A stretch of 16,002 nt of DNA from Oscillospiraceae bacterium (GTDB taxonomy: Bacteria; Bacillota; Clostridia; Oscillospirales; Oscillospiraceae): NCBI GenBank assembly GCA_017936205.1, contig JAGBGB010000041.1, positions 1 through 16,002 of the forward strand, given 5' to 3'. Position numbers and translations under genes: made by a program. A model generated the notes under the pieces. It did not search any database and had not been told where the DNA came from. It was given only the letters and a program-made list of their open reading frames with translations. Every line of letters starts with the position of its first letter. Position 1 is the first letter of the stretch. This document shows positions 19-14,547 of the stretch, piece by piece.

Positions 19-47
19 TTGATTTTATTCTATCCTTTGTGTATAAT
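19..47 (+). promoter_or_regulatory. Sigma-A type promoter of the surface-glycan operon
   Basis: TTGATT at 19-24, a 17-base spacer, and a perfect TATAAT at 42-47. It lies 35 bases ahead of the first start codon of the eight-gene operon, giving a short leader with no room for a riboswitch. No other comparable promoter was seen inside the operon, so it is likely the main promoter. Confidence 0.75.
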
Positions 48-82
48 ACTGTCATATCTATGCTTTTTTCGGAGGAATTCTT

Positions 83-1561
83 ATGATCCGATCTGTTATG
101 GCTGTGTGGAAGGAGAAGAAGCTCTCCTTCTTCCTTGCTCTGATCCCTTGGCTTGCAAGCTTCTTGTTAGAGGGGCGGTTTTTTGTGGTTGCCCGATCTG
201 CCCATTTGCTTACCTATGTGGGCTGCAAGGGGATCCTGCTTGTGGGGCTGTTTCTGTTTGCGGATTTCCTGCTCAGAGCTATCCGTGAGCCCATGGGAGA
301 TTCACGTTACACCCTGCTCTATGCCATGAGCTACTTCCTGATCCTGTTAGGCTGGATGCTGTGGAAGCTGCCTCTGTATTTACAGGGGGACGAGCTGAAC
401 ATTTATATCCAAGCCAAGCAGCTTGATCCTATGGCCTATTGGTTCAACTACTTCACAGGCTGCTACTGGATCAGCTGCGGTATGCTGCTGCCCTTTGAGA
501 TGGGGCCTATTCTGATCAAGCTGCTGCTCCATTCCCTGACTATGGGCTACTGTGCCCAGAGACTGCGGAAGCACAGCTCCGCTGTGTGGGCACTGCTGCT
601 GTACATCCCCTATTTGCAGCCCTTTGTGATGGATCTGGGTGCTTCTGCCCACCGTCTGCCCCTGTACGGCATTCTGTACCTGTTCTTGGCTGCTAAGCTG
701 TTCTTCGATCACAAGGAGCAGAAAAAGCTGGACGGGAAGACTCTGCTTCTCCTCAGTGTAGTGATCGGGATCCTGAGCTACTGGAGAACGGAAGGCATTT
801 ATATGGTAGTTGCAGGTGCGATCCTGATTCCCGTAGCATACCGTTTGCCGGTGAGGAAGCAGCTTTCCCGTCTGTGGAAGCCTGCTGTGTGCTACGTGCT
901 GATCCTGCTGATTTTGGCTCTGCCTCAGTTCGCTGCCTATGCCGATGACAGTAAGCCCTCTATGATGGTTCGTTCTGCACCCTTGTGTGGCTATGCCCTT
1001 GCCAATATGCTCCGCAGCGGGTTGGAAGAAGCAGATATTGAGCCTGCTACCTATGAAGCCATTGATGTTTACATTCCCTTTGAAAAGTTGAGAGAAATGA
1101 ACGCAGTCCAGGGGGATGCTGCCTATTCCCATGCTATGGCGATGGATCTGGCAGATCCCAAGGCAGACTTTGCTGTCCGTGGTGCCTTCTGTGATGCGGT
1201 CAAGGGTTTGATCCTGAAGCATCCCCTGATTTTCCTACGTTCCCAGTGGAACGGCTTCTGCTACACCTCTGCCCAATACAGCTATGAGGGAGATTTGCAG
1301 ACCTTCCTCCGTTATGGGAGCTATCGTCAGTGGCTGCCACTGCTGTTGTGCGGAATTTTCTTGATCTTCGGTCTGCTCCGTAAACGCTTCGTGACCATGC
1401 TGCTGAGTCTGTGTGGACTTGGGAATTGGGCTCTGATCACTGCCCTCATGCCCGCTGCCTATGCGAAATACTTCTATGTAGACTACCTGCTGGGCTACTT
1501 CCTGCTGTTCCTTGGTCTTGCCTGCCTGTTGAGTAGAAGGAAGGAGCAGATCTATGAATAA
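83..1561 (+). CDS. Polytopic membrane glycosyltransferase, GT-C / GtrII-like
   Basis: A 492-residue multi-pass membrane protein with about ten hydrophobic segments. After the early membrane segments it carries an acidic pair D103-E104 in a loop, as expected for the catalytic/metal loop of GT-C enzymes that use lipid-phosphate sugar donors. A W-R-T-E-G-I-Y motif at about 234-240 is typical of this type of membrane transferase. A larger polar domain at about 280-405 probably faces outside. The ATG at 83 is preceded by GGAGG (71-75) with 7-base spacing. The gene overlaps the GtrA-family gene by 8 bases and is followed by a GT2 gene. This is the composition of the GtrA/GtrB/GtrC three-component system, in which the polytopic protein moves the sugar from undecaprenyl phosphate onto a surface polymer or protein. 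The acceptor and the sugar are unknown. Alternative: another GT39/GT-C family, or a polymerase-like membrane protein. Confidence 0.7.
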   Translation: MIRSVMAVWKEKKLSFFLALIPWLASFLLEGRFFVVARSAHLLTYVGCKGILLVGLFLFADFLLRAIREPMGDSRYTLLYAMSYFLILLGWMLWKLPLYLQGDELNIYIQAKQLDPMAYWFNYFTGCYWISCGMLLPFEMGPILIKLLLHSLTMGYCAQRLRKHSSAVWALLLYIPYLQPFVMDLGASAHRLPLYGILYLFLAAKLFFDHKEQKKLDGKTLLLLSVVIGILSYWRTEGIYMVVAGAILIPVAYRLPVRKQLSRLWKPAVCYVLILLILALPQFAAYADDSKPSMMVRSAPLCGYALANMLRSGLEEADIEPATYEAIDVYIPFEKLREMNAVQGDAAYSHAMAMDLADPKADFAVRGAFCDAVKGLILKHPLIFLRSQWNGFCYTSAQYSYEGDLQTFLRYGSYRQWLPLLLCGIFLIFGLLRKRFVTMLLSLCGLGNWALITALMPAAYAKYFYVDYLLGYFLLFLGLACLLSRRKEQIYE

Positions 1562-1964
1562 GCTGCTACGGAAGCTGGGAGCCTTCCTGCTGTTTTCCGG
1601 CATTGGCTGGGTCATAGACTTCGGGATCTATACCCTGCTTACAGGCTTCTTGGACTTCCCGGTGGCAGGAGCCAATTATCTGAGCTCCGTTCCTGCCATT
1701 ACCTTCGTATTCTTCGCCTCTACCAGGAAGACCTTCCTCTGCCGTCCCGACGGACTGAAAAAGGGGCATAAATATCTGATCTATGTGCTCTACCAGCTTC
1801 TGCTGCTGACCACAGTATCCTTCCTCGCACAGTGGTTAGAACCGTTGTTGAGTTCTATTCCTGCTCTCGGAGAGTACTCCAAGCTGTTGGCAAAGATCTG
1901 TATTACCCCTGTGACCATGCTGTGTAATTTCTTCGTGCTGCGACTGATCGCAGAGAAATGGTGA
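1554..1964 (+). CDS. GtrA-family membrane protein (putative lipid-linked sugar flippase)
   Basis: A 136-residue protein with four membrane helices, the normal size for GtrA. The first helix contains the typical F-x-x-x-G-x-x-x-W-x-x-D pattern (FSGIGWVIDFGIY, residues about 14-26), followed by the family's aromatic/basic turn (FVFFASTRKTF). GtrA proteins are thought to flip undecaprenyl-phosphate-linked sugars across the cytoplasmic membrane. The start overlaps the end of the upstream gene by 8 bases (ATGAATAA), which suggests translational coupling. The next gene, a DPM-synthase-like GT2 enzyme, starts 4 bases after its stop. That neighbour is the expected source of the lipid-linked sugar. 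Family assignment is firm; the cargo is not known. Confidence 0.88.
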   Translation: MNKLLRKLGAFLLFSGIGWVIDFGIYTLLTGFLDFPVAGANYLSSVPAITFVFFASTRKTFLCRPDGLKKGHKYLIYVLYQLLLLTTVSFLAQWLEPLLSSIPALGEYSKLLAKICITPVTMLCNFFVLRLIAEKW

Positions 1965-1968
1965 TATT

Positions 1969-2778
1969 ATGGAAAAGATCTTGATCTTCATCCCTATGTA
2001 TAATTGTGAAAAGCAGATCCCCCGTGTACTGGGTCGCATTGCCGCTCTGGGAGAGGAACAAAGCCTCTTTACAGAAGTCCTCATTGTGGACAACCGCAGC
2101 GCAGACCATAGTTTGGAGGCGGCACAGTCTGCTATGCAGGAGCTGTCTATTCCCGTGACCTTGATCCGTAATGTGGAGAACTACAGCTTAGGTGGCTCCC
2201 ACAAGGTCGCCTTCAACTATGGATTGGAGAAGGGCTTTGACTTTGTAGTTGTCCTCCACGGAGACGATCAGGGAGATATTGGGGATCTTGTTCCCCTGCT
2301 GAAGAAGGGAGAGCACAGAGAATTGGATTCTCTCTTAGGCTCTCGCTTCTCCAAGGGCTCTAAATTGGTGAATTACAGCTCCTTCCGCATTTTCGGCAAC
2401 CATGTATTCAATCTGTTTGCCTCAGTCTGTGCCGGACGGCGGATCTATGATTTAGGCTCCGGACTGAATATTTACAAAACAAGCTATTTGAAGGATCGGT
2501 TCTATAGGCCCTTCCCCAATGATCTGAGCTTCAATGTCTTCCTGCTGCTGTACGGCATCTATGCAAAATCTTCCTTCCGTTTCTTCCCCCTGTGCTGGCG
2601 AGAGGAGGATCAGATCAGCAACGCCCGACTGTGGAAGCAGACCAAGAGGATGCTCAAGCTGCTGTTTACCTATGTATTCCGCAGAAAGACTGTCTTCTCC
2701 GGGAAGAAAACGGAATACAGCCGCATCCAATACCGTTATGAGATCATAGCACGGAAGGAGGGCTCTTCATGCATCTGA
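1969..2778 (+). CDS. Family 2 glycosyltransferase, DPM-synthase/GtrB-like
   Basis: A 269-residue GT2 enzyme with a GT-A fold. The N-terminal strand and nucleotide-binding region (I-P-M-Y-N at 8-12, V-D-N-R-S with D41) is followed by the acidic metal/donor motif H-G-D-D-Q-G-D at 97-103. A G-S-R-F-S-K-G motif follows, as in polyprenyl-phosphate mannose/glucose synthases. It should use a nucleotide sugar to make a polyprenyl-phosphate sugar at the inner membrane face. Unlike classical GtrB it has no clear pair of C-terminal membrane helices; the tail is basic and may bind the membrane peripherally. It lies 4 bases after the GtrA-family gene and overlaps the nucleotidyltransferase gene by 10 bases. 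Sugar specificity cannot be read from the sequence. Confidence 0.85.
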   Translation: MEKILIFIPMYNCEKQIPRVLGRIAALGEEQSLFTEVLIVDNRSADHSLEAAQSAMQELSIPVTLIRNVENYSLGGSHKVAFNYGLEKGFDFVVVLHGDDQGDIGDLVPLLKKGEHRELDSLLGSRFSKGSKLVNYSSFRIFGNHVFNLFASVCAGRRIYDLGSGLNIYKTSYLKDRFYRPFPNDLSFNVFLLLYGIYAKSSFRFFPLCWREEDQISNARLWKQTKRMLKLLFTYVFRRKTVFSGKKTEYSRIQYRYEIIARKEGSSCI

Positions 2779-3500
2779 TCATGCCTATGGGAGGAGCGGG
2801 AACCCGTTTCTTTGACAAGGGCTTTGAGTGCCCTAAGCCTCTGTTGGAGCTGTTGGGGAAGCCCTTTTTCTATTGGGCGACCCAGTCTGTTTTAAAGAGC
2901 ATAGCTGTAGAAAGTCTCACCTTTGTGGTCCTACAGGAGCACATTGACCGCTTTTCTATTGATCAAAAAATATTGGAATACTACCCACAGGCACAGATCG
3001 TGGTGCTGCCCAAGGTGCTGCCCGGTGCGGTGCTGACCTGTCTGGCAGGGATCGAGGGCTTAGAGCCCTCTGCCTCTGTGCTGTTTAATGACTGTGATCA
3101 TGCCTTCGGCGCTTCAAAGCTCGCTGCCTTCCTGAAAGAAGGGAATGAGGCAGAGGGGGCTCTGCTGACCTTCCGATCTCAGGAGCCCAAGTTCAGCTTC
3201 TTGGCATACAGGGAGGATGGCTTCGTCAGCCATACCGTGGAGAAGCAGGTCATCAGCTCGGATGCCATCTGCGGTGCCTATTACTTCCGTAGTGTGGGAC
3301 AGTTCCGGGAGGCTGCGGAGCGCTACCTTACAAGCTGCACCTATCGGGAATTCTTCATGAGCGGAGTCTATAACGAGCTGATCCGTGCCGGTGGAAGGGT
3401 ACGGGGCTTGCAGGTAGACTTCCATGTTCCCTTCGGTACCCCCGAGGAGTATTATGCGGCGGAGCAGGAAGGAGAGCTTCTGCGGAGGCTGCTAAAATGA
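2769..3500 (+). CDS. Sugar/alcohol-phosphate nucleotidyltransferase
   Basis: A 243-residue protein of the NTP_transferase family. The signature loop is complete: G-G-A-G-T-R at 8-13, then P-K-P with K23. The metal-binding N-D-C-D-H lies at 107-111 (D108 and D110). It should couple an NTP to a phosphorylated sugar or alcohol, releasing pyrophosphate. The length is short, with no left-handed beta-helix or second domain, so it resembles LicC-type cytidylyltransferases and capsule-locus nucleotidyltransferases more than bifunctional GlmU. The start overlaps the GT2 gene by 10 bases and the stop overlaps the kinase-fusion gene in ATGA. The adjacent kinase and phosphatase suggest that it activates a substrate phosphorylated within the same operon. 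The nucleotide and substrate are not known. Confidence 0.82.
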   Translation: MHLIMPMGGAGTRFFDKGFECPKPLLELLGKPFFYWATQSVLKSIAVESLTFVVLQEHIDRFSIDQKILEYYPQAQIVVLPKVLPGAVLTCLAGIEGLEPSASVLFNDCDHAFGASKLAAFLKEGNEAEGALLTFRSQEPKFSFLAYREDGFVSHTVEKQVISSDAICGAYYFRSVGQFREAAERYLTSCTYREFFMSGVYNELIRAGGRVRGLQVDFHVPFGTPEEYYAAEQEGELLRRLLK

Positions 3501-5404
3501 TCGGACTGTATCTGGTGCTTGCCATTGGCTTGCTGACTCTGGGACATTTGTGCAAGGCTCACCGTTGGAGACTGTTTACCTCTGTGTATGAAACTCTGCC
3601 CGCCCACTGTCTGATCACCTCCCTGTCTGCAGGCTATTTGATCAACTTCTTCGTCCCCTTCCATATGGGGGACCTGTTCCGCATATGGTTTGCAGGACGG
3701 AGAATGAAGAACGGCTACGGCTATGCCTCTGCAACGGTGATCGTGGATCGCTGTCTGGATGTGCTCTGTGTCACAGGGATCTTTCTGCTTCTGTGGCTGT
3801 CAGAGCCTACAGCTGCCCTCCGCCGGATCACTGTGACCTACGGGATCATGCTGGGACTGATCCTGATCCTGTTTTTCTTGGGGATCTTCTGGAATCGGGG
3901 CTTCAAGCAGCTGGCACTGTCCTTCTGCTCTATTTTTAATGAAGCCATTCAGTTCCGCCTGCTGTTCTTCCTCTGGTCTCTGATCTCCTCCTTTAAGGAT
4001 GTGTTCCGCAAGGTGTCCTTCTGGAAGCTGCTGCTGGACAGCCTGCTGATGTGGGGTGCTTATTTGGCATCCTACTTCTTCCTTGGGAAGACGCTGCAAC
4101 AATTGGGCTATGCTATGGGACTGCGGGAATGTTTTAGCCTGATCTTTGGCGGAAGCGCCCTATTCGGCTCCACCTTCCTGTCTACCACCGGATTGCTGCA
4201 GCCCTTTGCGGAGCTGCTGCTGTGCCTGTATATTCTTCTGCCCCTGCCCTTGCTGCTGTGTGGCTCTTTGCTCCACTCCCGAAAGGAGCCCACATGCAGA
4301 GCCTCCCTCCTGCTGCCCCATCGGAAGCCGGAGGAACAGCTTCACTTCCTCCATCTGTATTTTGAAGGAAATCAGCGGCAAGCCCTCCACGAATATCTGA
4401 ATATGAATGCGGATGCCGCCATTCTTCGGGACTATTCCTCCGGCTCCGATGCTACTACCATGCTGTGCTTGCGGGATAATGAGACGGTATTCCGAAAATA
4501 TGCCTTCGGTACTGCAGCGGTGAAGTTAGAGGAGCAGGCGCAGTGGATCAAGTCCCTGTCCCACAAGCTGCCTCTGCCGGAGATCTCTATGGAGAAGCAC
4601 GGAACAGACTCCTTCTGCTACGATATGCGCTACCCCAAGCCGGGTATGGGGCTGTTCCAGTACATATATTGCCATTCCGTAGAGGAAAGCTGGTCTGTTT
4701 TAGAGCAGGTCTTAGAGGATCTGTGTGAAAAGCTCTATCCCAAGGAGGGAGAGCCTGTCTCTCAGACTGCCATTGCAGACTATGTGAAAACGAAGGTGGA
4801 AGCCAATGTTCGGAGTATTTGTCAGAGCAAGATCCTACGACCTCTGACAGAGACGGATCATATTATGATCAACGGTGTGAAATATCGGAACCTGCCTCTG
4901 CTCCTTCCCCTCCTGAGCAAGGAGCGGCTGAGTCGGATCTTTGCACAGGATCCCCGATCTGAGGTTCACGGAGATCTGACCTTAGAGAACATCATCTGCT
5001 ACACCCAGCCGGAGGAAGGGAAACCCTATTATCTCATCGATCCCAACCCCGGCAATCCTGTTAAGAGTCCCTACATTGACTTCGCCAAGCTGCTCCAGTC
5101 CCTCCACGGAAAGTATGAATTTTTAGAAACCTGCCACCCCACCCATATGGAGGAGGGGAAGATCCAGTTCCTGCTGCCGGATTCTCCCCAATCAAGGCAG
5201 ATCTACAGCAAGCTTCGAGAATGGTTAGAAGCTCATTTTCCACCGGAGGCGGTATGCAGCATTTACCACCATGAACTGATCCACTGGCTCCGCCTTATGC
5301 CCTACCGCCTGAGACGGAACGAAAACACTGCACCATGCTACTATGCTGCTATGATTCTTGTTATGAATGATATCGCTGATCTATATGGAGAGAACGGAGT
5401 ATGA
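3497..5404 (+). CDS. Fusion: LPG-synthase-type membrane domain + APH/choline-kinase-like kinase
   Basis: A 635-residue two-part protein. Residues about 1-265 hold roughly seven membrane helices and match the lysylphosphatidylglycerol-synthase TM (UPF0104/flippase-like) family. The family's core pattern is visible at about 44-78: a polar-proline turn (N-F-F-V-P-F-H-M-G-D-L-F-R), R-R, then V-D-R-C-L-D. Residues about 290-635 form a soluble kinase-like domain. K334 is a candidate ATP-binding lysine, the catalytic loop is H491-G-D493-x4-N498, and the metal motif D515-P-N-P-G lies 22 residues after D493. These are the diagnostic residues of aminoglycoside phosphotransferase/choline kinase (LicA-like) enzymes and all are intact. 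Likely role: phosphorylating a small hydroxylated molecule at the membrane, possibly linked to lipid or intermediate transport. ATGA overlaps on both sides tie it to the nucleotidyltransferase and the HAD phosphatase. No frameshift is needed, and the two domains run continuously. Confidence 0.8.
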   Translation: MIGLYLVLAIGLLTLGHLCKAHRWRLFTSVYETLPAHCLITSLSAGYLINFFVPFHMGDLFRIWFAGRRMKNGYGYASATVIVDRCLDVLCVTGIFLLLWLSEPTAALRRITVTYGIMLGLILILFFLGIFWNRGFKQLALSFCSIFNEAIQFRLLFFLWSLISSFKDVFRKVSFWKLLLDSLLMWGAYLASYFFLGKTLQQLGYAMGLRECFSLIFGGSALFGSTFLSTTGLLQPFAELLLCLYILLPLPLLLCGSLLHSRKEPTCRASLLLPHRKPEEQLHFLHLYFEGNQRQALHEYLNMNADAAILRDYSSGSDATTMLCLRDNETVFRKYAFGTAAVKLEEQAQWIKSLSHKLPLPEISMEKHGTDSFCYDMRYPKPGMGLFQYIYCHSVEESWSVLEQVLEDLCEKLYPKEGEPVSQTAIADYVKTKVEANVRSICQSKILRPLTETDHIMINGVKYRNLPLLLPLLSKERLSRIFAQDPRSEVHGDLTLENIICYTQPEEGKPYYLIDPNPGNPVKSPYIDFAKLLQSLHGKYEFLETCHPTHMEEGKIQFLLPDSPQSRQIYSKLREWLEAHFPPEAVCSIYHHELIHWLRLMPYRLRRNENTAPCYYAAMILVMNDIADLYGENGV

Positions 5405-5976
5405 AAAATAAACTGGCTATTTTTGATCTGGACGGAACCTTGTTCGATACGGTTCCCGCAAACTTTGCCGCCTATGAAAGGGTGCTGCGGAAGTACGGCT
5501 TCTCCCTGAATGAAGCATACTTCGCCAAGCACTGCAACGGTAGATATTACAAAGACTTTCTGCCGGAGATCATCGGCTCAGATCCGGAGCTGCTGGAACG
5601 GATCCATCAAGAGAAAATCGCCTGTTACCCTGATTTCTTCCCTAAAATTCGGGAAAACAGGGCACTGTTCTCCCTATTAGAGGCTCTTTCTCCTACCTAT
5701 CACATTGCTCTGGTCAGCACCGCTGCCAAGAAAAGTGTTTATGAGATCTTAGAGCTGTTCCATCGGAAGGACTGCTTTGAACTGATCCTGACCCAAGCAG
5801 AGGTGCCTCGGAAAAAGCCTGCTCCCGATGGCTTCCTTATGGCAATGGAGCATTTCTCCCTGTCCCCGGAGCAGACCATCATCTTCGAGGATTCCCCGGA
5901 GGGCATTGCCGCCGCCAAAGCAAGCGGAGCCCAGTGCTTCGTGATCCCTTCCATCGCCCCATACTATATCATGTAG
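5401..5976 (+). CDS. HAD-superfamily phosphatase, beta-phosphoglucomutase-like subfamily
   Basis: A 191-residue HAD hydrolase with all four motifs. Motif I is F-D9-L-D11-G-T (nucleophile D9, acid/base D11), motif II is S106-T-A-A, motif III is the lysine in K-K-P-A-P-D at 138-143, and motif IV is E163-D164-S-P-E-G. The helical cap lies between motifs I and II (about 17-85), as in phosphoglycolate phosphatase/beta-PGM-like enzymes. It starts in a 4-base ATGA overlap with the kinase-fusion gene and ends 13 bases ahead of the MBOAT start. It may dephosphorylate an intermediate of the nucleotide-activated precursor, or recycle phosphorylated by-products. The exact substrate is not visible, and a mutase function cannot be excluded from sequence alone. 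Confidence 0.85.
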   Translation: MKNKLAIFDLDGTLFDTVPANFAAYERVLRKYGFSLNEAYFAKHCNGRYYKDFLPEIIGSDPELLERIHQEKIACYPDFFPKIRENRALFSLLEALSPTYHIALVSTAAKKSVYEILELFHRKDCFELILTQAEVPRKKPAPDGFLMAMEHFSLSPEQTIIFEDSPEGIAAAKASGAQCFVIPSIAPYYIM

Positions 5977-5989
5977 ATTGGAGATGCCT

Positions 5990-7441
5990 ATGTCACTGAT
6001 ATCACTGAGTTTTCTGGCATTTATGACTGTGGCTTTTCTGGGGTATTTCATTCTGCCCATGAAGCTGCGGCCCTACTTCCTGCTGCTGGCAAGCCTGTTC
6101 TTCTATTCTTGCTTCGGTTGGAAGGCCTTCTTCTACTTGGGCTTCACCACTTTGAGCAGCTTTTTCCTCAGTCTGTGGATGCCGAAGGCGAAGCCCTCTG
6201 TAAAAAAGCTCCTGCTGATCCTGTCCCTTGTGCTGAATTTGGGCTTACTGATCCTTGTAAAGTATCTGAACTTCACTTTAGATCTGGTATTTGGGCTGTT
6301 TGGTGCAGAGGCGCCGGTGCTGTCTATTTTGGTTCCCTTGGGCATTGCCTTCTATACCATGCAGGCAGTCAGCTACTGTGTGGATGTGTATAAGGGGAAG
6401 TATGCCCCTGAGAGAAGCTTCTGCAAATATCTCCTCTATATGAGCTACTTCCCCATTATTATGCAGGGGCCGATCTCCCGTTATGATCAGCTGGGCTCTC
6501 AGGTGTTTACCCCTCACCGTTTCTCCTTTGATAGACTAAAGGCAGGTCTGTGTTTGGCTCTGTTCGGCTTCTTCAAGAAAATGGTCATTGCAGATCGGGC
6601 TGCCATACTGGTGGATCAGGTTTTTGGAAGCTACCTGTCCCACAGCGGCATGGAGTTGTTGATCGCCGCTGTTTTGTATACCATCCAGATCTATGCAGAT
6701 TTCTCCGGCTGTGTGGATATTTGCCGAGGGGTATCTCAGGTTCTGGGGATCGAGCTGGCGGAAAACTTCAAGCATCCCTATTTTTCCGTTTCCATTAAGG
6801 ACTTCTGGCGCAGATGGCACTGCTCCCTGTCCTCCTGGTTCCGGGATTACATCTACATTCCCTTAGGCGGCAGTCGGAGAGGGACGGGACGGAAGTATCT
6901 GAACCTGACCGTGGTGTTCTTAGTCAGTGGCCTGTGGCACGGTGTAGGTCTGCAATTCATTGCATGGGGACTGCTCCATGCAGGCTACCAGATCTTCGGA
7001 GAGCTGAGTTCCGACCTCCGATACAGGCTGTATGACCGCTGCAGGATCAACAGAAGCAGCAGACTTTTCCGTCTGGGGCAGCAGATCTTCACCTTCGGTC
7101 TGTTAGTGATCTCTTGGATCTTTTTCCGTGCCCCCTCGCTCTCTTCTGCTCTGTATATCCTCAAAACCATTGCCCTGCAGCTGGATCCCTTCTTCCTCCT
7201 GCGTGGACCCTTCCCCAATTTGGGACTGGATTCCAAGGACCTTCTGGTGTTCCTCCTTGCAGTGGCTGTGCTCTGGGTGGTTTCCCTGCTGCAGCAGAAG
7301 GGTTTCCTACGACAGCGAGTGGAGAAGCAGAGCTTCTTGATCCGTTATCCTGTGTATCTCATAGCTATTTTTGTCATTCTGATCTTCGGAATCTACGGCC
7401 CCGGCTATGATGTGGCACAATTCATCTATATGCAGTTCTAA
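5990..7441 (+). CDS. MBOAT-family membrane O-acyltransferase (AlgI/DltB-like)
   Basis: A 483-residue polytopic protein from the ATG at 5990, which is preceded by GGAG (5980-5983) with 6-base spacing. TTG at 5978 and ATG at 5984 are in frame but have worse spacing. About eleven membrane segments are visible. The AlgI/DltB region has W-R-R-W-H (H277), then an aromatic/basic stretch ending P-L-G-G, and the family's invariant histidine in L-W-H-G at H317, with a second histidine at H330. Such proteins pass acyl groups (often acetyl) across the membrane to exported polymers, usually with an SGNH partner, which is the next gene 11 bases downstream. Here it probably O-acylates the glycan built by the operon. 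Length and motifs are normal for the family. Confidence 0.92.
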   Translation: MSLISLSFLAFMTVAFLGYFILPMKLRPYFLLLASLFFYSCFGWKAFFYLGFTTLSSFFLSLWMPKAKPSVKKLLLILSLVLNLGLLILVKYLNFTLDLVFGLFGAEAPVLSILVPLGIAFYTMQAVSYCVDVYKGKYAPERSFCKYLLYMSYFPIIMQGPISRYDQLGSQVFTPHRFSFDRLKAGLCLALFGFFKKMVIADRAAILVDQVFGSYLSHSGMELLIAAVLYTIQIYADFSGCVDICRGVSQVLGIELAENFKHPYFSVSIKDFWRRWHCSLSSWFRDYIYIPLGGSRRGTGRKYLNLTVVFLVSGLWHGVGLQFIAWGLLHAGYQIFGELSSDLRYRLYDRCRINRSSRLFRLGQQIFTFGLLVISWIFFRAPSLSSALYILKTIALQLDPFFLLRGPFPNLGLDSKDLLVFLLAVAVLWVVSLLQQKGFLRQRVEKQSFLIRYPVYLIAIFVILIFGIYGPGYDVAQFIYMQF

Positions 7442-7452
7442 GGAGGGCAGCT

Positions 7453-8478
7453 ATGACAAAGAAAAATCTGTTCCTCATTCTGCGGCGGCTGCTATTTGTT
7501 GTGCTGCTGCTTTCTCTGCTGATCTATACCTTCTTAGTCTTCGAGCGTAAAACCCTGTATGATTCCTGGAATTATACCCTAAAAGTCAACGGCTTCACCA
7601 ATGAGCCGGAGAACAGCTTCAATCTCCTTGGCTTCGGTTCCAGTCATATGTACTGCACCATGGATCCCCTGCATATTTACGAAGGCAGCGGGCTCCGTTC
7701 CTATGTTCTGGCGACCCAGCAGCAGCCTGTGGAGGCGACTTATTACTATGTGAAGGAAGCCTTAGAAACCCAGAACCCCGATGTGGTGGTGCTGGAAGCT
7801 TATATGTATCTGCTCAACGATTTCACCGCCCCGGAGGGAACCCTCCATGATGCCATTGACCCCTTCCCGGAGGGATGGAATAAGATGGGGATGATAGAGA
7901 ATCTGGATCCTGCAGACGGGAAGGAGAATTATTACATCAACTTCCTGAAATATCATACCCGTTGGAAGGATCTGAGCCTTCGGGACTTCGACCTGAGCTA
8001 TCGCTCTGAGACCGATCCCATGCATGGCTATGTGTTCCTGACCAACAGTGCCCCCAATGAGATGGCACAGCAGGATTATTCTCAGGAAGAGGAGATCCCT
8101 CTGAGTGATAAAAATCTGGAATATTTGCAGAAGACCATTGATTTGATCCATGAGCAGGGAAGTGAAGTCGTTTTGCTCCTGACCCCCTACATTCCCAAGG
8201 GATATACGGGGCAAACCAAGGCACTCCACCGCTACGCACAGGAGCAGGGGATCCCACTGCTGGATATGAATCTGTGTTACAACGATATCGGACTGGATTC
8301 TACCACGGATTACTACGACAAGGAACATCTGAATGTCTACGGTGCAGAAAAGGCCAGCGAATATCTGGTGCAATTCATACAGGAGCACTTCCCCATGAGC
8401 CCCCGCAGTATAGAAGACACCGCCCTCTGGCAGGAGGATCTGCGGCAATACCACCAAGCAAAAAACGATCCCGCATAA
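7453..8478 (+). CDS. Membrane-anchored SGNH/DltD-like acyltransferase partner
   Basis: A 341-residue protein with an N-terminal membrane anchor at about 8-28 (uncleaved signal-anchor type) and an extracellular SGNH-like domain. The nucleophile region is G62-S-S-H65 (S63 or S64 as nucleophile). The C-terminal catalytic pair is D289-x-x-H292 in D-K-E-H-L-N, the D-x-x-H arrangement of SGNH/GDSL and DltD/AlgJ-like proteins. A strong AAGGAGG ribosome site precedes the ATG. It directly follows the MBOAT gene and ends at the operon terminator. In known MBOAT pairs the SGNH protein receives the acyl group outside and places it on the polymer, or trims it. Which polymer is modified here is inferred only from the neighbours. 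Confidence 0.83.
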   Translation: MTKKNLFLILRRLLFVVLLLSLLIYTFLVFERKTLYDSWNYTLKVNGFTNEPENSFNLLGFGSSHMYCTMDPLHIYEGSGLRSYVLATQQQPVEATYYYVKEALETQNPDVVVLEAYMYLLNDFTAPEGTLHDAIDPFPEGWNKMGMIENLDPADGKENYYINFLKYHTRWKDLSLRDFDLSYRSETDPMHGYVFLTNSAPNEMAQQDYSQEEEIPLSDKNLEYLQKTIDLIHEQGSEVVLLLTPYIPKGYTGQTKALHRYAQEQGIPLLDMNLCYNDIGLDSTTDYYDKEHLNVYGAEKASEYLVQFIQEHFPMSPRSIEDTALWQEDLRQYHQAKNDPA

Positions 8479-8480
8479 AA

Positions 8481-8525
8481 AACGCTTCCGATGGGGTGTA
8501 TTCCCCTTCGGAAGCGTTGTTTTTA
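8481..8525. terminator. Bidirectional intrinsic terminator between convergent operons
   Basis: A 16-base arm at 8481-8496 pairs with 8503-8518, with one mismatch and a 6-base loop. It is followed by GTTTTT on the plus strand. Read on the minus strand, the same hairpin is followed by TTTTTT. It starts 2 bases after the SGNH stop and lies just past the PfkB stop, so it can end both transcripts. Confidence 0.88.
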
Positions 8526-8537
8526 TGGAAAAAATGA

Positions 8538-9464
8538 TCAGCCGGGGTAGTTCAGGCCCAGCTCTTCGGGACGGAAGCGGGGGCATACATTCTCTGCAGA
8601 GGTAATAACGGAAGCAGCCAAGTGTGTGCCGATCTCTACAGCCTCTGCCAGCGTCTTTCCGTAGGTCATGCCGCTGACCACACCTGCACAGAAGGCATCA
8701 CCGGCACCGGTGGTATCCTTAACCTGCACATTTCTGGCAGGGCAGTAGCCCTTCAAACCGTTCCGATCCGCATACACAGCACCGTCCTTGCCCAAGGTGA
8801 CGACCATGGATTTTATGTTTGCACGAGTGATCTTATCTGAAAGGATCTGCTGCAGCTCGTCTGCGGGAGTTTTGGAATAATCGTCTAAGAACAGCAGACC
8901 TGCCTCTTGACGGTTGCAGATGAAACATTCAAATTCCTGCAGGAAGTCACGACGCTCTGCGGCAATGCTCATATTGGAAACCAGAGCATAGTTCTTAACA
9001 TTGTACTTTTTAGACAGCTCGAAGACACGCTTGACAATATCCTTATGGAGATCCACTTGGAGAACCACAGAGCTTGCGTTCTGGAAGATCTCATCTCCCT
9101 TCTCCATCAGTATCTCGAGGATGGGATAGGCATTGGGACGCTTGGAAATGGAGCCTGCCACATCCCCGTTGTTGTCGAAAACAGCCAGCCACAGACCCAT
9201 ACCGTCAGGAACGGTGATCACATAGTCTGTATTGACCTTGTGCTTCTTCAGCTTGGTCAGAACCTCATTCCCCATAGGGGTGTCATCCACAATACCAATG
9301 TAGGTGGGACGCAGCTCCAGATTGGCGATATCCTCTACCACGTTACGGGCAACTCCACCATGGACGTATTCTACTCTGCCCACATTTCTGCCGGTGGGAA
9401 TGTAGCTGTCCTCAGGGAAGCCCTTGATGTCCACGAATACATCACCAATGACTACAATGCTCAT
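8538..9464 (-). CDS. PfkB-family carbohydrate/nucleoside kinase
   Basis: A 308-residue ribokinase-superfamily protein of normal length. The N-terminal substrate signature G-G-V-A-R-N lies at 36-41. The N-x-x-E metal motif is N184-R-Q-E187. The C-terminal signature D-T-T-G-A-G-D is at 250-256, with D256 the catalytic base and the anion hole in G253-A-G. It phosphorylates a sugar or nucleoside with ATP in the cytoplasm. The G-G-V-A-R-N start resembles pseudouridine kinases (PsuK), but no pseudouridine glycosidase gene is nearby, so no substrate is assigned. The ATG at 9464 has GGAGG about 8 bases upstream. It has its own promoter in the 84-base gap after the pyrophosphatase gene and ends at the shared terminator. 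Confidence 0.88.
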   Translation of the reverse strand: MSIVVIGDVFVDIKGFPEDSYIPTGRNVGRVEYVHGGVARNVVEDIANLELRPTYIGIVDDTPMGNEVLTKLKKHKVNTDYVITVPDGMGLWLAVFDNNGDVAGSISKRPNAYPILEILMEKGDEIFQNASSVVLQVDLHKDIVKRVFELSKKYNVKNYALVSNMSIAAERRDFLQEFECFICNRQEAGLLFLDDYSKTPADELQQILSDKITRANIKSMVVTLGKDGAVYADRNGLKGYCPARNVQVKDTTGAGDAFCAGVVSGMTYGKTLAEAVEIGTHLAASVITSAENVCPRFRPEELGLNYPG

Positions 9465-9548: not shown

Positions 9549-11165
9549 TTAACCCCACATAGCGGAGAGGGCAGGGATGACCTGCTTCTTACGGGACATG
9601 ACTTTGGGAAGAAAAACAGAGTGATTCTTGGCATCCTGGGAGAAGGCGGTACGGATATCCTCTTCGTCACCTAAATACAGCAGCTGCGTGCCTTCCAACA
9701 GCACGTCTGTAAGCATTAGAAGAACCATGTCATACTTCTTACGTTCCACAGCTGCCTTCATTTCTGCAATGAATTCGTCCTTTCGCTTCAGGATGTGCTC
9801 AGAATTAACGCAGGTGATCTGACCTACGCCCAGACTGTGCTCTGCAATGTGGAATTCCTTAAAGTCAGAGAACAGCAGCTCCTTGGCAGTCTTGTCATCG
9901 GACCAGGAGGAGGAGAAGATCTGCTGCCCCAGCTCATCCAGAGATACATTGGCGATCCGTGCCATACGCTCTGCCATGCTCCGATCTCGACGGGTGCAGG
10001 TAGGGGATTTGAACATGACTGTGTCAGAAACAATAGCTGCTGCCATCATACCCGCTAACTTGGGAGAGGGCATAAGCCCTCGCTCCTGATACATCCCTGC
10101 AATGATGGTGGTGGTGCTGCCCACAGGCTCATTGCGGAAGTAAATGGGATTGCCTGTCTGAATATCTGCCAGACGGTGATGGTCAATGATCTCCAGAATA
10201 TCTGCCTGATCCAGACCGGGAACAGACTGCGCAGCTTCATTATGATCTACCAGAACGACTCTCTTCCGTCTGGGGCGGATCAAATGGTAACGGGACAGGG
10301 TGCCTACCACCCGTTCATTCTCATCCAGAATGGGGTAGCAGCGGTAGCGGCTCCGGAGCATTCCCTCCCGTACATCATCTACGAAGTCATCCAGATGGAA
10401 GCATTCTAAATTCTCTGTCCGACACACACGAGCGACAGGAATGGACTGGTAGATCAGCCTCACTGCACGGTAGGCTTCAAAGGGAGTGGAAATGATACAG
10501 GTATCTGTAGGATAGTTCCGCAGCTCCTCGGACAGCTCTGCCTGGCAAACGATGACACATTTGACACCGATTTCCAGAGCACGGCGAACCATATCCGGCT
10601 GGTCTCCGCAGACGACAATGCTGTCCTTACTCTTAAATAGCAGGTTCTCGCAGCTCTGAGGCATGGCGATGGTCACCTCGCCGGAAATGCTGTCTAACAG
10701 ATTTCCTGCTTCGTTAAGGATCCGCCCCTCTAAAACACTGACCAGATTGAATACGGGAATTTGATCTACAAAGGGATGCTCGATGGAGCGCATATCATAA
10801 GCCGCAATGTCACCGGAGGACAAGAGTCCATAGAGGCTACCGTCCTCGTTGGTCACAGGAATCGCTGCAATAGAGCGGTCTGCAGTCAGAATGGACCATG
10901 CCCGACTGACTGCCACCGCAGAGGACAGGGCGGGGGGTGTATCATAGTCCAGATCTCGAACCTGAGTTCTTACGGTTTTGATCCACTGGGGTGCGGAGAA
11001 GCCAAAGCGATCCAAGACTATTTGGGTTTCGTCACTGATATGACCGATCCGAGCCGCACGATACTGTCCCTCCCCCAGTGCGTTCCGCAGTGCCGCATAG
11101 GCCATGGCAGAAACAATGGAATCTGTATCGGGATTTCGGTGTCCGGTAACATAAATCGTATCCAT
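9549..11165 (-). CDS. ppaC: Family II manganese-dependent inorganic pyrophosphatase with CBS and DRTGG domains
   Basis: A 538-residue DHH-superfamily pyrophosphatase that hydrolyses PPi to phosphate in the cytoplasm. The metal-binding N terminus is G-H9-R-N-P-D13-T-D15. A first CBS domain lies at about 70-130, a DRTGG-like domain at about 135-245 and a second CBS domain at about 248-300. The catalytic core then resumes with V-D307-H-N-E, D328-H-H, S-D381-T and the C-terminal S-R-K-K-Q motif at about 524-528, which binds phosphate. Family II enzymes without inserts have about 310 residues, so the extra length is the regulatory insert. In known clostridial members the insert binds AMP/ADP, and with DRTGG also diadenosine polyphosphates. 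The ATG at 11165 follows AGGAGG. All key residues are present. It removes PPi, including that from nucleotidyltransferase reactions. Confidence 0.93.
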   Translation of the reverse strand: MDTIYVTGHRNPDTDSIVSAMAYAALRNALGEGQYRAARIGHISDETQIVLDRFGFSAPQWIKTVRTQVRDLDYDTPPALSSAVAVSRAWSILTADRSIAAIPVTNEDGSLYGLLSSGDIAAYDMRSIEHPFVDQIPVFNLVSVLEGRILNEAGNLLDSISGEVTIAMPQSCENLLFKSKDSIVVCGDQPDMVRRALEIGVKCVIVCQAELSEELRNYPTDTCIISTPFEAYRAVRLIYQSIPVARVCRTENLECFHLDDFVDDVREGMLRSRYRCYPILDENERVVGTLSRYHLIRPRRKRVVLVDHNEAAQSVPGLDQADILEIIDHHRLADIQTGNPIYFRNEPVGSTTTIIAGMYQERGLMPSPKLAGMMAAAIVSDTVMFKSPTCTRRDRSMAERMARIANVSLDELGQQIFSSSWSDDKTAKELLFSDFKEFHIAEHSLGVGQITCVNSEHILKRKDEFIAEMKAAVERKKYDMVLLMLTDVLLEGTQLLYLGDEEDIRTAFSQDAKNHSVFLPKVMSRKKQVIPALSAMWG

Positions 11166-11308: not shown

Positions 11309-12475
11309 TTGATTGAGAATTTAAACAAACAGCTGTTTACATCCTACGGAAGGATCTTGACGGACAGCCTTGTTAACCAGCGCTTGGAGCAGAGTGAGGG
11401 CTGGATCCAGTGTACCAGGACCTTCTTCTATGATAGCGTACATTATTATCGAGCTGTCAGTGAGACATATCTGGATTTCGATATAGGGATGACCGTTCTC
11501 ATTCTTCGGAAGGGTGGAAGCTCCACAGCCTTCTACTTGGACAAGGCAATCTGCTTGCCGGTAGGAACGGAGTTTGCCCTGATGCCCTATCAGCGGGAAT
11601 GTTCCGTACGGATGGCATATCGTACAGATTACGAGCCTCAGCAGTTAGAGCCTTGTCAGGACTGCCGAGATCTGAAGATCACCTCAAGACTCCACTTAGG
11701 GGAAATCTATACCCTGTTCTACAGAGTGGGGGAGAGTGGCTTCCTGTTCAAGGGTGAGAAGCACTCTGCCTATGAGCTGACCTATGTGGATCGGGGACAG
11801 CTTCACTGTGTGGTCGATGGAGTAGGCTATGCCCTGAAGCAGGGGCAGATGATGATCTTCCAGCCCAATCAGTGGCATATGCAGTACACAGATCTGAATG
11901 TAACTGCTCACTTCCTGACCGTCTCCTTTGATCTGCTGTCGGATATGGAGCTTCCCTTCGGAGATCGGATTTTCGAGTTGTCCTCTATTGAAGCTACTTA
12001 TTTGAAGCAGCTGCTGCAGGAGCCGGAGATCATGGATGCTTACAGCAATGACGTGATCCGCTCCAACCTGAAGCTCCTGCTGCTGTCCATCCTGCGGGAT
12101 ACCAATAAGCGTAGGAAGCGTCTGAAAACCCCCACCGCCCTGCGGAATGAGAACACCATTGTGGGTCGTACTCTCCAATATATAGCAGACCATGTGTATG
12201 ACCGCTTGTCCGTTGAGGTGGTGGCAAAGGAGACCGGTGTCAGCGCCTCCCATCTGACTGCCCTGTTCCGTCGGCAAATGAGCATCTCTCCCGGTGAATA
12301 CATCCGCCGTGTGAAGTTAGAGGAAAGCAAGAGCCTGATCCGGGAAGGCAGAATGAACTTCTCCCAAATCGCCGCTGCTCTGCAATATTCTACCATCCAC
12401 CACTTTTCCAGACAATTTAAGGAAAACTTCGGCATTTCCCCCTCGGAGTATGCAAAATCCCTGAAGAACGAATAG
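11309..12475 (+). CDS. AraC-family transcriptional regulator with cupin-like sensor domain
   Basis: A 388-residue regulator. The C-terminal 105 residues (about 281-385) form the two helix-turn-helix AraC domain. The first recognition unit is A-x-E-T-G-V-S-A-S-H-L, and the second ends in the typical H-H-F-S-R-Q-F-K and G-I-S-P-S-E-Y. A cupin/jelly-roll segment lies at about 150-200 (E-L-T-Y-V-D-R-G, then P-N-Q-W-H), as in sugar-sensing AraC proteins. The 140 residues before it resemble no domain I can name. The start is TTG at 11309, with a G-rich site (11294-11300) 8 bases ahead; no ATG near the N terminus fits. It has its own promoter and terminator and is therefore monocistronic. Its target is unknown. 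Confidence 0.9.
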   Translation: MIENLNKQLFTSYGRILTDSLVNQRLEQSEGWIQCTRTFFYDSVHYYRAVSETYLDFDIGMTVLILRKGGSSTAFYLDKAICLPVGTEFALMPYQRECSVRMAYRTDYEPQQLEPCQDCRDLKITSRLHLGEIYTLFYRVGESGFLFKGEKHSAYELTYVDRGQLHCVVDGVGYALKQGQMMIFQPNQWHMQYTDLNVTAHFLTVSFDLLSDMELPFGDRIFELSSIEATYLKQLLQEPEIMDAYSNDVIRSNLKLLLLSILRDTNKRRKRLKTPTALRNENTIVGRTLQYIADHVYDRLSVEVVAKETGVSASHLTALFRRQMSISPGEYIRRVKLEESKSLIREGRMNFSQIAAALQYSTIHHFSRQFKENFGISPSEYAKSLKNE

Positions 12476-12572: not shown

Positions 12573-12606
12573 TTGCTTTTTCTGTCGATTTGTGTTATTC
12601 TATAAT
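12573..12606 (+). promoter_or_regulatory. Probable promoter of the DUF2207-yfbR operon
   Basis: TTGCTT at 12573-12578 with a 17-base spacer to TATTCT (12596-12601), immediately overlapped by a perfect TATAAT at 12601-12606 whose own -35 region is weak. One of these -10 boxes is likely used. The start codon lies about 50 bases downstream. Confidence 0.5.
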
Positions 12607-12655
12607 ATCATGCGTAGAATATGCAATACTTTATAGATTGAAGGGAGGTGCAGCC

Positions 12656-14539
12656 TTGCGTAAGCTGTTTTTGATTCTTCTGTGTGTCTGCCTTCTGCTG
12701 AGTCATAGCTCTGCAGCCTCAGATGAGATCACCATGCTGGATGCTCAGGTCACTGTAGATTCCAGCGGTATTTCCCGCGTTACGGTCATGGCTCAGGTTC
12801 GCTTCGTGAGCCGCCCCACCCGTTTCGTATTCCCTCTGGGTACTGATGCAGAGGATATTACCGCCGCCGGTGCCGCTTATGAAGAAGATCGCATTGACGG
12901 TGTGGAGTACCTCATTTTTGAGAATGAATCCGGCTTCTCCGGAACATTGAGCTTCCAGTGCAGCTACACTCTCCCCTGTACCATGACAGAGAGCGGCGAG
13001 GAGCAGCATTTCTTCCTGGAACTGCCGGAGCGAGGCTGGGAGCTTCCTATTAACCGTTTCCAGCTAACTGTGACCTTCCCGTCAGAGATCACGGCCTTCC
13101 CCCGTTGGCACAGCTCCTACTATGGGGATGTTATCGACAATTACTTAAATATTCAGATCAAGGAGAATACCGTTACTGCCGACTCTGCCATTGTGTTCCG
13201 TGACCATGAAACTCTGTCCATGGAGCTGGATTTCCAGCCGAACACCTTTGTTCTGCGGCATTTGGCGGAGCAGACCGTTCCCCTTGATCGCATTGCTTTC
13301 CTTGTACTTTACGGATGCTGCATTCTCTATTGGATCCTTGTCTTCCGTCGGAAGAGGGAGGAAGCCAAGAAGCTTTATACCCTGAGCTTCCAGGCATCCG
13401 CCGGTGAGATCCCCTGTCAGCTTTACGGCATTCTTCCTGATGCAGGTGCCCTCCTCGCTCATTGGGGAAATCTGGGATACATTCTCCTCCATCGCACTCG
13501 GCGCGGTAGCTTCCGCATTGAGAAGCAGATGGAAATGGGAAATGAACGCAGTGCTGCAGAAAGGCGAGTTTTTAAAGCTATTTTCCGCAGTACCGCCTTC
13601 GTAGAGGTGCCCGGAAGTCGTTTCCTGACAGCCTTTAGCACAGAGGCCCCTGTTCTCAGAGCCCATTGGAGGAATCGAATGTTCAAGGGCAGGAAGGGGA
13701 GACCCAAGCCCTTACGGCGGCTCTGTCTGGCAGTAGGTCTGTGCCTGTCTCTGATGATTTTTGACACCCTCCTCCCCGCCACCCCCAGCCGTTGGTTCTG
13801 GCTGGTGGTACTGACCCTGTTGAGTATGCCTCTTCACTGGCTCCTGCAACAGATCACCCTGTATTTCTATCGCCCACAGCGATGGCTGTATATGCTTCTG
13901 GGCACAGCTGCAGCATTCGTGCTGTATTTGCTGGCATCTCCTGCGGACTGTGGAAGTTATCTGTTCTTCCACCTTCTGTTGCAGCTTGGTGTTGGCTATG
14001 TTACTCGCTTCGGCGGTGGTCGCAGCGTTCCCGGTCAGGAGACTGTGGAGGAGTTGATGAGCTTCCGCAAATTCGTTACCCATGCCAATCGGGAATCTGC
14101 CAAAACCATGGTACAGAAGGACGGACAGTACTTCTTCCGTGCGCTGCCCTATGCTGAAATGCTGGGGATCGGCAACCGCTTTGTCAAGCACTTCGGTGCA
14201 GTATCTACAGAAGCTTGCCCCTGGTTGGTAGACGAGAAGAACATGGTTCGCAGCCCCAGCGACTTCTACAGTCTATATAAGGAGATGCTGCGACAGCTTC
14301 GTATGCAGGATCGGATAAGCTTTTTCCGTTCTCTGGGTCAGAGAATTGTCACAAACACTCCGAGAGTTCGACCCGGAAATGACCGCAGCAGAGGCAAGGG
14401 CTCCTCTTCCTATAAAAATAAGGCAAGACGACCTGCATCCCGCTCCGACAATGCTACCTCTCGTGCCTCTAACCGCAGACGAACAACCACACGCAGAACC
14501 CAGCACAGAGCAAATACCCAAGGTACCGTCAGAAGGTGA
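12656..14539 (+). CDS. DUF2207-type exported membrane protein with basic C-terminal tail
   Basis: 627 residues from the TTG at 12656, which has GGGAGG (12643-12648) 7 bases upstream. An upstream in-frame TTG at 12590 would add 22 residues without a ribosome site. The N terminus is a signal peptide (about 1-20, ending S-S-A-A-S). An extracellular beta-rich domain follows at about 22-205, with the layout of the DUF2207 N-terminal domain. A membrane helix lies at about 212-230, then a cytoplasmic segment, then three or four membrane helices at about 350-450. A further soluble domain (about 460-570) contains a W-L-V segment typical of the family's C-terminal half. The last ~55 residues are almost only Arg, Ser, Thr, Asn and Lys. 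The function of the family is unknown. The stop overlaps the region ahead of yfbR, so the two genes are probably coupled. Confidence 0.75.
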   Translation: MRKLFLILLCVCLLLSHSSAASDEITMLDAQVTVDSSGISRVTVMAQVRFVSRPTRFVFPLGTDAEDITAAGAAYEEDRIDGVEYLIFENESGFSGTLSFQCSYTLPCTMTESGEEQHFFLELPERGWELPINRFQLTVTFPSEITAFPRWHSSYYGDVIDNYLNIQIKENTVTADSAIVFRDHETLSMELDFQPNTFVLRHLAEQTVPLDRIAFLVLYGCCILYWILVFRRKREEAKKLYTLSFQASAGEIPCQLYGILPDAGALLAHWGNLGYILLHRTRRGSFRIEKQMEMGNERSAAERRVFKAIFRSTAFVEVPGSRFLTAFSTEAPVLRAHWRNRMFKGRKGRPKPLRRLCLAVGLCLSLMIFDTLLPATPSRWFWLVVLTLLSMPLHWLLQQITLYFYRPQRWLYMLLGTAAAFVLYLLASPADCGSYLFFHLLLQLGVGYVTRFGGGRSVPGQETVEELMSFRKFVTHANRESAKTMVQKDGQYFFRALPYAEMLGIGNRFVKHFGAVSTEACPWLVDEKNMVRSPSDFYSLYKEMLRQLRMQDRISFFRSLGQRIVTNTPRVRPGNDRSRGKGSSSYKNKARRPASRSDNATSRASNRRRTTTRRTQHRANTQGTVRR

Positions 14540-14547
14540 GGCAAGTT

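Follow-up and report, generated by a model that had tools for sequence, protein, structure and literature searches.

Eight genes on the forward strand of a 16,002-nucleotide stretch of DNA from an Oscillospiraceae bacterium (GCA_017936205.1, contig JAGBGB010000041.1; hereafter the window) form a real operon whose natural division is a six-gene kit plus a two-gene acylation add-on, not three genes plus five. Genes 1-6 probably constitute a Gtr-type glycosylation system with its own nucleotide-sugar supply, and genes 7-8 an optional acylation of its product. The features of the operon are listed below.

19..47, + strand: promoter-like site TTGATT-17-TATAAT, 10 of 12 consensus matches
83..1561, + strand: gene 1, GT-C fold glycosyltransferase, 492 aa (AlphaFold model)
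1554..1964, + strand: gene 2, GtrA-family small membrane protein, putative flippase (PF04138)
1969..2778, + strand: gene 3, GT2 enzyme, dolichyl/polyprenyl-phosphate sugar synthase-like (PF00535, PDB profile match)
2769..3500, + strand: gene 4, sugar-phosphate nucleotidyltransferase family (sub-cut-off PF00483/PF01128, PDB profile match)
3497..5404, + strand: gene 5, fusion of an MprF/AglD-type putative flippase domain (residues ~1-260) and an APH-fold small-molecule kinase (~292-635)
5401..5976, + strand: gene 6, HAD-superfamily protein of the beta-phosphoglucomutase (beta-PGM)/phosphatase branch, read as a phosphatase (PF13419)
5984 (or 5990)..7441, + strand: gene 7, MBOAT O-acyltransferase, DltB-like (PF03062)
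7453..8478, + strand: gene 8, SGNH-like protein, predicted extracytoplasmic acyl-transfer partner of gene 7 (weak PF19040/PF13472, motifs)
8481..8524, + strand: intrinsic terminator between convergent genes (RNA fold -28.3 kcal/mol)

Architecture of the operon

The original prediction, made from the letters alone, described eight genes with overlaps or gaps of at most 13 bases between one promoter and one terminator. All eight open reading frames (ORFs) were confirmed on the same strand, with successive junctions of -8, +4, -10, -4, -4, +7 (or +13) and +11 bases, and the run ends at a strong terminator (z -6.6, equalled by none of 200 shuffles). The promoter fared less well: the site at 19..47 exists, but the window contains 16 sites of that quality against 13.4 expected from shuffles, so this site alone is no evidence of a promoter. 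As base 1 of the window is also the first base of its contig, further upstream genes are possible, and the promoter and upstream end are unproven. The predicted families largely stood, with GtrA, GT2, LPG_synthase_TM, HAD_2 and MBOAT above their Pfam gathering scores, the nucleotidyltransferase just below and the SGNH call weak. The GT-C and APH assignments hold by fold, for gene 1 and for the kinase half of gene 5, although gene 1 has no Pfam hit and the kinase half no APH hit.

Conserved linkage of genes 1-6

A contig scan with the gene 5 fusion confirmed 132 places, the best 80 of which were analysed (L004-L083). These derive from Oscillospiraceae, Lachnospiraceae, Bacilli, Treponema, Leptotrichia, Gallibacterium, Paenibacillus, Desulfovibrionaceae and Planctomycetaceae; the sample is uneven, with 19 of the 80 labelled Gemmiger, and favours close relatives. 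The fusion ORF was located in 81 loci, window included, using our own codon-scored ORF caller rather than a gene finder, and same-strand genes within 6 kb were counted with profiles built from the same loci, among which the SGNH profile (four sequences) will miss relatives. Forty loci, window excluded, have at least 6 kb on both sides. In this well-flanked set the nucleotidyltransferase is found near the fusion in all 40 loci, HAD and GT2 in 38 each, an SDR in 22, GT-C in 18, GtrA in 13, and MBOAT and SGNH in 2 each. Across all 81 loci, many of which are cut by contig ends, the counts are HAD 77, nucleotidyltransferase 75, GT2 64, SDR 37, GT-C 31, GtrA 30, MBOAT 5 and SGNH 4. The GT-C count is probably an underestimate because these enzymes diverge fast. 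Gene order is also kept: the nucleotidyltransferase immediately precedes the fusion in 65 of the 81 loci, at a distance that never exceeds 100 bases, and HAD immediately follows it in 73, within 100 bases in 72.

A same-genus counterpart of the window is L004, from Oscillospiraceae bacterium RGIG1706 (goat caecum), which carries GT-C, GtrA, GT2, nucleotidyltransferase, fusion and HAD genes in the same order, followed by opposite-strand genes in place of the acylation pair. The scarcity of MBOAT and SGNH genes, together with a locus of exactly these six genes, sets the division at six plus two. An eight-gene set acting as one conserved system, as had been proposed, was therefore rejected. The proposed linkage of the first genes with the rest was borne out, in that genes 1-6 belong together; it is strong for GT2, but GT-C and GtrA were detected in fewer than half of the well-flanked loci.

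The distribution of the fusion is patchy, as for serotype-like accessory loci. It is present in 2 of the 199 genomes of the relatives search, including the window's own, and a search of 398 genomes of the phylum gave 10 matches at E<=0.001, with a full-length match in the window's own genome only and the others listed as partial. Tree-distance correlations with the fusion were 0.80 for the nucleotidyltransferase (n=73), 0.78 for HAD (n=75), 0.70 for GT-C (n=28), 0.58 for GtrA (n=25), 0.35 for the SDR (n=35) and 0.31 for GT2 (n=59), the largest of 500 permutations being 0.11, 0.16, 0.22, 0.27, 0.35 and 0.21, respectively; part of each value reflects the common ancestry of the hosts, and that of the SDR does not exceed its permutations.

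On plasmid pPB17_3 of Pseudochrobactrum algeriensis (L126:7061-11465), GtrA, GT2, nucleotidyltransferase, fusion (26.5% identical) and HAD genes occur in the window's order beside the dTDP-rhamnose genes rfbABCD, an IS3 transposase and a recombinase, a setting that suggests cassette mobility. A 532-aa hypothetical gene on this plasmid does not match the GT-C profile (probability 0.7%), and a search of E. coli genomes with the Gallibacterium cassette for a known O-antigen gave no match at blastn sensitivity. The wider gene content was sampled by taking 164 candidate neighbours from 40 loci, reducing them by script to 115 (at most two per cluster) and submitting 75 to Pfam, with 40, mainly short or housekeeping-looking genes of Gemmiger loci, omitted by hand. 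Among the 25 families listed of the 110 matched were AT3 acyltransferases (4 neighbours), Polysacc_synt flippases (4), Glycos_transf_1 (4) and O-antigen-ligase-like proteins (2), which, with the bias of hand-chosen neighbours, places the cassette in surface-glycan loci.

Predicted functions of the encoded proteins

Gene 1 has no Pfam match, but its AlphaFold model shows a GT-C fold, and the protein is predicted to move a sugar from polyprenyl phosphate outside the membrane. Gene 2 matches PF04138 at 40.8 bits (cut-off 26.1) and gene 3 matches PF00535 at 54.4 bits, with no transmembrane segment predicted by hydropathy. The best PDB match of the GT2 profile is an archaeal dolichol monophosphate mannose synthase (5mlz, E 4e-9); chondroitin synthase scores nearly equally (E 5.6e-9) over a shorter stretch. 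The window holds a transferase of GT-C fold and, by family, a GtrA-type small flippase of predicted function. In the cited part of PMC8035078, the Gtr and CsbB-GtcA-YfhO systems are described as three-component transmembrane glycosylation systems, and genes 1-3 resemble them in combining a GT2 putatively of the polyprenyl-phosphate-sugar synthase type, a GtrA-type flippase and a GT-C transferase. Unlike those systems, as described there, the window operon also encodes a kinase, a HAD protein and a nucleotidyltransferase dedicated to donor supply, carries a second flippase-type domain joined to the kinase and includes an acylation pair; its GT2 lacks a predicted transmembrane segment.

The Pfam score of gene 4 lies just below the gathering threshold (19.7 versus 21.2 bits). 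The best PDB match of its profile is 4evw (E 6e-24), listed as a nucleoside-diphosphate-sugar pyrophosphorylase, followed by nucleotidyltransferase entries of the 6-deoxyheptose pathway and RmlA-type enzymes. Gene 6 matches PF13419 at 101.7 bits, and its nearest PDB entry is the sugar phosphatase TM_1254 (3kbb, 104 bits), ahead of beta-PGM (85 bits). The recurrent SDR, which is not encoded in the window, is of the extended type and close to GalE and 4,6-dehydratases; its presence suggests that the nucleoside-diphosphate (NDP) sugar is sometimes remodelled. In many loci it lies between GT2 and the nucleotidyltransferase (e.g. L041:6345-7370), with conserved GIAPLPDCQ and ASTNAMYEN stretches, and 12 aligned copies are 60-80% identical to the Gemmiger one, save for a Planctomycete copy (34%). 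Elsewhere in the window's genome, which is 72.5% complete, the best match to this SDR reached 139 bits over part of the profile, and such matches were read as generic relatives. A second GT2 type of ~237 aa is encoded upstream of the SDR or nucleotidyltransferase at L070:7478-8194 and in L033, L063, L074 and L077, loci in which the main GT2 cluster is not among the genes nearest the fusion.

In gene 5, the N-terminal half matches PF03706 at 48.3 bits (gathering score 33.4), covering positions 35-233 of the 302 in the profile. The C-terminal half has an APH kinase fold; in the window its only Pfam match is a weak one to TCAD9. Kinase motifs are invariant in 20 of 20 sequences, namely H491-G492-D493-L494-T495 with E497 and N498, and I514-D515-P516-N517. 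In APH-fold kinases, HGDxxxxN is the catalytic motif and IDP the metal-binding motif. Neither the fusion profile nor the kinase profile found a meaningful PDB match by sequence. The fusion is full-length in distant relatives (171 matches at E<=0.001 among 8000 candidates scored), and the kinase is joined to a lipid-flippase-type domain throughout this 635-aa family, whose records call it merely a flippase-like or LPG-synthase TM protein. According to the cited part of PMC5898192, PF03706 domains are proposed flippases of lipid-linked saccharides, and AglD is a DPM-like glycosyltransferase fused to one. Both the window and such AglD-type proteins associate a PF03706 (UPF0104) domain with a GT2 resembling DPM synthase within a glycosylation locus, but the fusion partner described there is the GT2, whereas that of gene 5 is an APH-fold kinase. 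Loci in which GtrA is missing may rely on the fused domain for flipping.

Gene 7 matches PF03062 at 104 bits and DltB structures at E 1e-24; its score against TIGR04091 (142.6 bits) is below the DltB equivalog cut-off of 375. The conserved His of MBOAT enzymes lies in a WHG motif, which is found at residue 318 of the window's protein and in 7 of 8 cluster members. The SGNH call for gene 8 depends on two weak sub-cut-off matches (PF19040 and PF13472) and on motifs, GSSH at 62 and DKEH at 289, a pair found in 2 of 4 family members; the protein has one N-terminal transmembrane segment (6-24), and its profile gave no meaningful match in the PDB. DltD is the extracytoplasmic partner in DltB/DltD acyl transfer, and the window likewise pairs an MBOAT with a predicted extracytoplasmic protein. 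Unlike DltB, gene 7 has no DltA or DltC alongside it in the window, which makes O-acetylation the likelier chemistry and disfavours D-alanylation. A further MBOAT in the genome, on a different contig (C219), is accompanied by a DltA-like gene (278 bits, cut-off 560).

Kinase, nucleotidyltransferase and HAD coupling in phages

The coupling of genes 4-6 extends to relatives that have no membrane domain. In genome G081, a nucleotidyltransferase of the same family (364 bits) adjoins a separate APH-family kinase of 297 aa that is homologous to the kinase half of gene 5; the locus contains glycosyltransferases but lacks the membrane fusion. A scan of viral contigs with the kinase profile confirmed 124 relatives, of which the best 80 were kept, and a scan with the phage G kinase added 6. 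Together with L108, L126, L127, L128 and L215, the viral loci gave 88 kinase ORFs, none scoring under 30 bits, which were reduced at 90% redundancy to 56 (52 from IMG/VR viral contigs plus L108, L126, L128 and L215). A nucleotidyltransferase match was found for 43 of the 56, in the same ORF in 12 and within 1 kb in 31 (12 and 28, respectively, for the IMG/VR ORFs alone). Among 224 control ORFs of 240 aa or more in the same loci, all lying more than 2.5 kb from a kinase ORF, 5 had such a match within 1 kb. A HAD-profile match lies within 1 kb of 9 of the 56, and 8 have neither.

Pfam and profile analysis of 11 viral ORFs of 594-708 aa indicated nucleotidyltransferase, HAD-type and kinase regions in one polypeptide in nine (L133:761-2818, L141:4909-6990, L140:4780-6870 and similar). 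A HAD-type match, with LNS2 counted as HAD-type, precedes the kinase region in all but L134 (best E 4e-6 to 0.0035, mostly below gathering thresholds), and the nucleotidyltransferase profile matches the same ORF in all but L147, where the match is in the neighbouring ORF; in L141 and L140 this region is above the Pfam cut-off as MobA-like. These proteins are apparently complete phage sugar-activation enzymes, and such fusions lend support to the earlier suggestion that a small molecule is phosphorylated and nucleotide-activated. In Bacillus phage G (L127:6980-9409), the kinase gp311, the HAD protein gp310 and the RmlA-like gp309 are encoded in a row (profile comparison E 6e-19, 6e-18 and 1e-5, respectively) between two annotated alpha glucosyl transferases, with a DNA cytosine methyltransferase nearby, and the trio possibly supplies a donor for DNA or virion glycosylation. 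Separately, G132 carries two tandem nucleotidyltransferases (89 and 66 bits) beside a gene that by eye resembles a class II aldolase, and a 718-aa ORF of G513 matches the kinase weakly (43 bits) but neither the nucleotidyltransferase nor HAD, with a weak GT2 match (39 bits) nearby.

Among the 88 kinase ORFs, a GT2-family match lies within 3 kb of both that are membrane-fused (L126, 320 bits; L128, 410 bits) and of 4 of the 86 that are not (L197, L142, L215 and L192; 18-54 bits), so that the membrane domain accompanies the lipid-linked route. The correlation comes from two cases and from 81 loci selected for having the fusion, and phages lack such glycans anyway; it fits a flippase or docking role for the membrane domain of gene 5.

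A proposed pathway and its alternatives

In the proposed pathway, the HAD enzyme would take the phosphate off a sugar phosphate, the APH-type kinase would put a phosphate back on the freed sugar, with the anomeric carbon as the most likely site, and the nucleotidyltransferase would convert the sugar-1-phosphate to an NDP-sugar. GT2 would then charge undecaprenyl phosphate with the sugar, the lipid-linked sugar would be flipped to the outer leaflet by GtrA, by the MprF-like domain of the kinase fusion or by both, and the GT-C enzyme would hand it to a surface polymer or protein encoded elsewhere, whose glycosylated form genes 7-8 would O-acylate, probably acetylate, outside the cell. The computed basis is gene linkage, the folds of gene 1 and the kinase half, the kinase motifs and the kinase-nucleotidyltransferase-HAD fusions; the step order, the anomeric position, the lipid carrier, the flipping role of the fused domain and what the acylation does are inferred.

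The donor route is best read as following the logic of MupP-AmgK-MurU, in which AmgK presumably belongs to the APH-fold sugar kinases. In the cited part of PMC5371407, a phosphatase, an anomeric kinase and a nucleotidyltransferase act in sequence to recycle N-acetylmuramic acid, the same series as proposed here, whereas the product in the window would presumably go into a lipid-linked donor. The HAD protein is not a MupP orthologue (NF009696 24.7 bits for the window and 37.9 bits for L045, cut-off 359). The operon also resembles the alpha-pentofuranose three-component systems, which have a donor synthesis of their own with a HAD phosphatase, together with a flippase, GT-C and auxiliary epimerases, but these, in the part of PMC11127046 cited here, use a phosphoribosyltransferase with phosphoribosyl pyrophosphate and a flippase of the MATE family, and their donor route involves no nucleotide sugar. 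Two observations weigh against the proposed pathway: the GT2 tree-distance correlation exceeds its permutations just modestly, which speaks against strict co-evolution of GT2 with the fusion, and many of the viral kinase matches are short, with 13 of the 20 that cover at least 180 profile positions having a fused or adjacent nucleotidyltransferase.

An unlikely variant is that the kinase makes a 6-phosphate and the HAD protein, as a beta-phosphomutase, provides beta-sugar-1-phosphate for the nucleotidyltransferase. The subfamily model closest to the HAD protein is indeed beta-PGM TIGR02009 (89 bits, cut-off 153), and a TTASxKN-like motif is kept in the family. However, Arg49 of beta-PGM, which holds the second phosphate, corresponds to an invariant Tyr (Tyr50) in 23 of 23 HAD sequences, the beta-PGM model TIGR01990 gives 65 bits against a cut-off of 189, and the HAD-type domains of the viral fusions match other HAD families; this Tyr and TM_1254 as the nearest structure favour a phosphatase over a mutase. 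LicA and LicC activate choline with a kinase and a nucleotidyltransferase, and the pair here could serve a polyol, amino alcohol or similar non-sugar destined for a phosphotransferase, leaving GT2, GtrA and GT-C as a separate pathway. Choline kinases belong to the APH-fold kinases and 18 of the 40 well-flanked loci have no SDR near the fusion, but the near-constant presence of GT2, the GalE/4,6-dehydratase-like character of the SDR and the annotated alpha-glucosyltransferases adjoining the phage G trio all argue for a sugar and make this account distinctly improbable. No LicD-type family occurs among the 25 listed families of the 75 chosen neighbours, which does not exclude one.

The fusion of the kinase to a lipid-flippase-type domain across the whole family could also mean that it phosphorylates a lipid, either polyprenol or a lipid-linked sugar, presented by that domain. 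Membrane-free relatives are next to or fused with a nucleotidyltransferase in viral contigs and in the polysaccharide-type locus of G081, which indicates a soluble substrate, and we consider a lipid substrate very improbable. The original prediction that the glycan is O-acylated outside concerns an optional pair, MBOAT and SGNH, and it is quite possible, if short of probable, that this pair is unrelated and shares just the transcript, as its rarity in the well-flanked loci and its absence from the same-genus locus L004 would allow. On the other side, 5 of 81 loci, window included, have a same-strand MBOAT no more than 6 kb away, and AT3 acyltransferases recur among the chosen neighbours. The MBOAT enrichment is weak, with about one expected by chance in a rough estimate by hand (~1 Mb of flanks, 3 per 2.46 Mb genome).

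Beyond the glycosylation pathway itself, we tentatively suggest that GT2, nucleotidyltransferase, fusion and HAD form a horizontally moving cassette for a sugar donor that housekeeping pathways do not supply, in which joining the kinase to the flippase physically ties activation to membrane export, and that phages use its membrane-free engine, in several cases as a single protein, probably for glycosylating a target of their own. Taken singly, the activities belong to known kinds; among the titles listed from the open-licence PMC literature, no description of their combination, of the flippase-kinase fusion or of the phage nucleotidyltransferase-HAD-kinase proteins was found. If correct, the proposal would provide a testable pathway, each step of which is open to assay with purified proteins, for unassigned surface-polysaccharide loci of Firmicutes, Treponema, Leptotrichia and Gallibacterium, and would assign a function to the fusion and link it to phage genes of obscure purpose.

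Neighbouring genes

Beyond the terminator, a PfkB-family kinase (8541-9464, - strand) neighbours a DHH/DHHA2 protein with CBS and DRTGG domains (9552-11165, - strand), an architecture that we take to be that of regulated family II inorganic pyrophosphatases. An AraC-type regulator follows at 11309-12472, and the region 12590-15123 (+ strand) encodes a DUF2207 membrane protein and then a YfbR-like 5'-deoxynucleotidase (249 bits). An open frame of 3211 aa elsewhere in the same genome (contig C171) matches adenylation domains several times and is probably a nonribosomal peptide synthetase.

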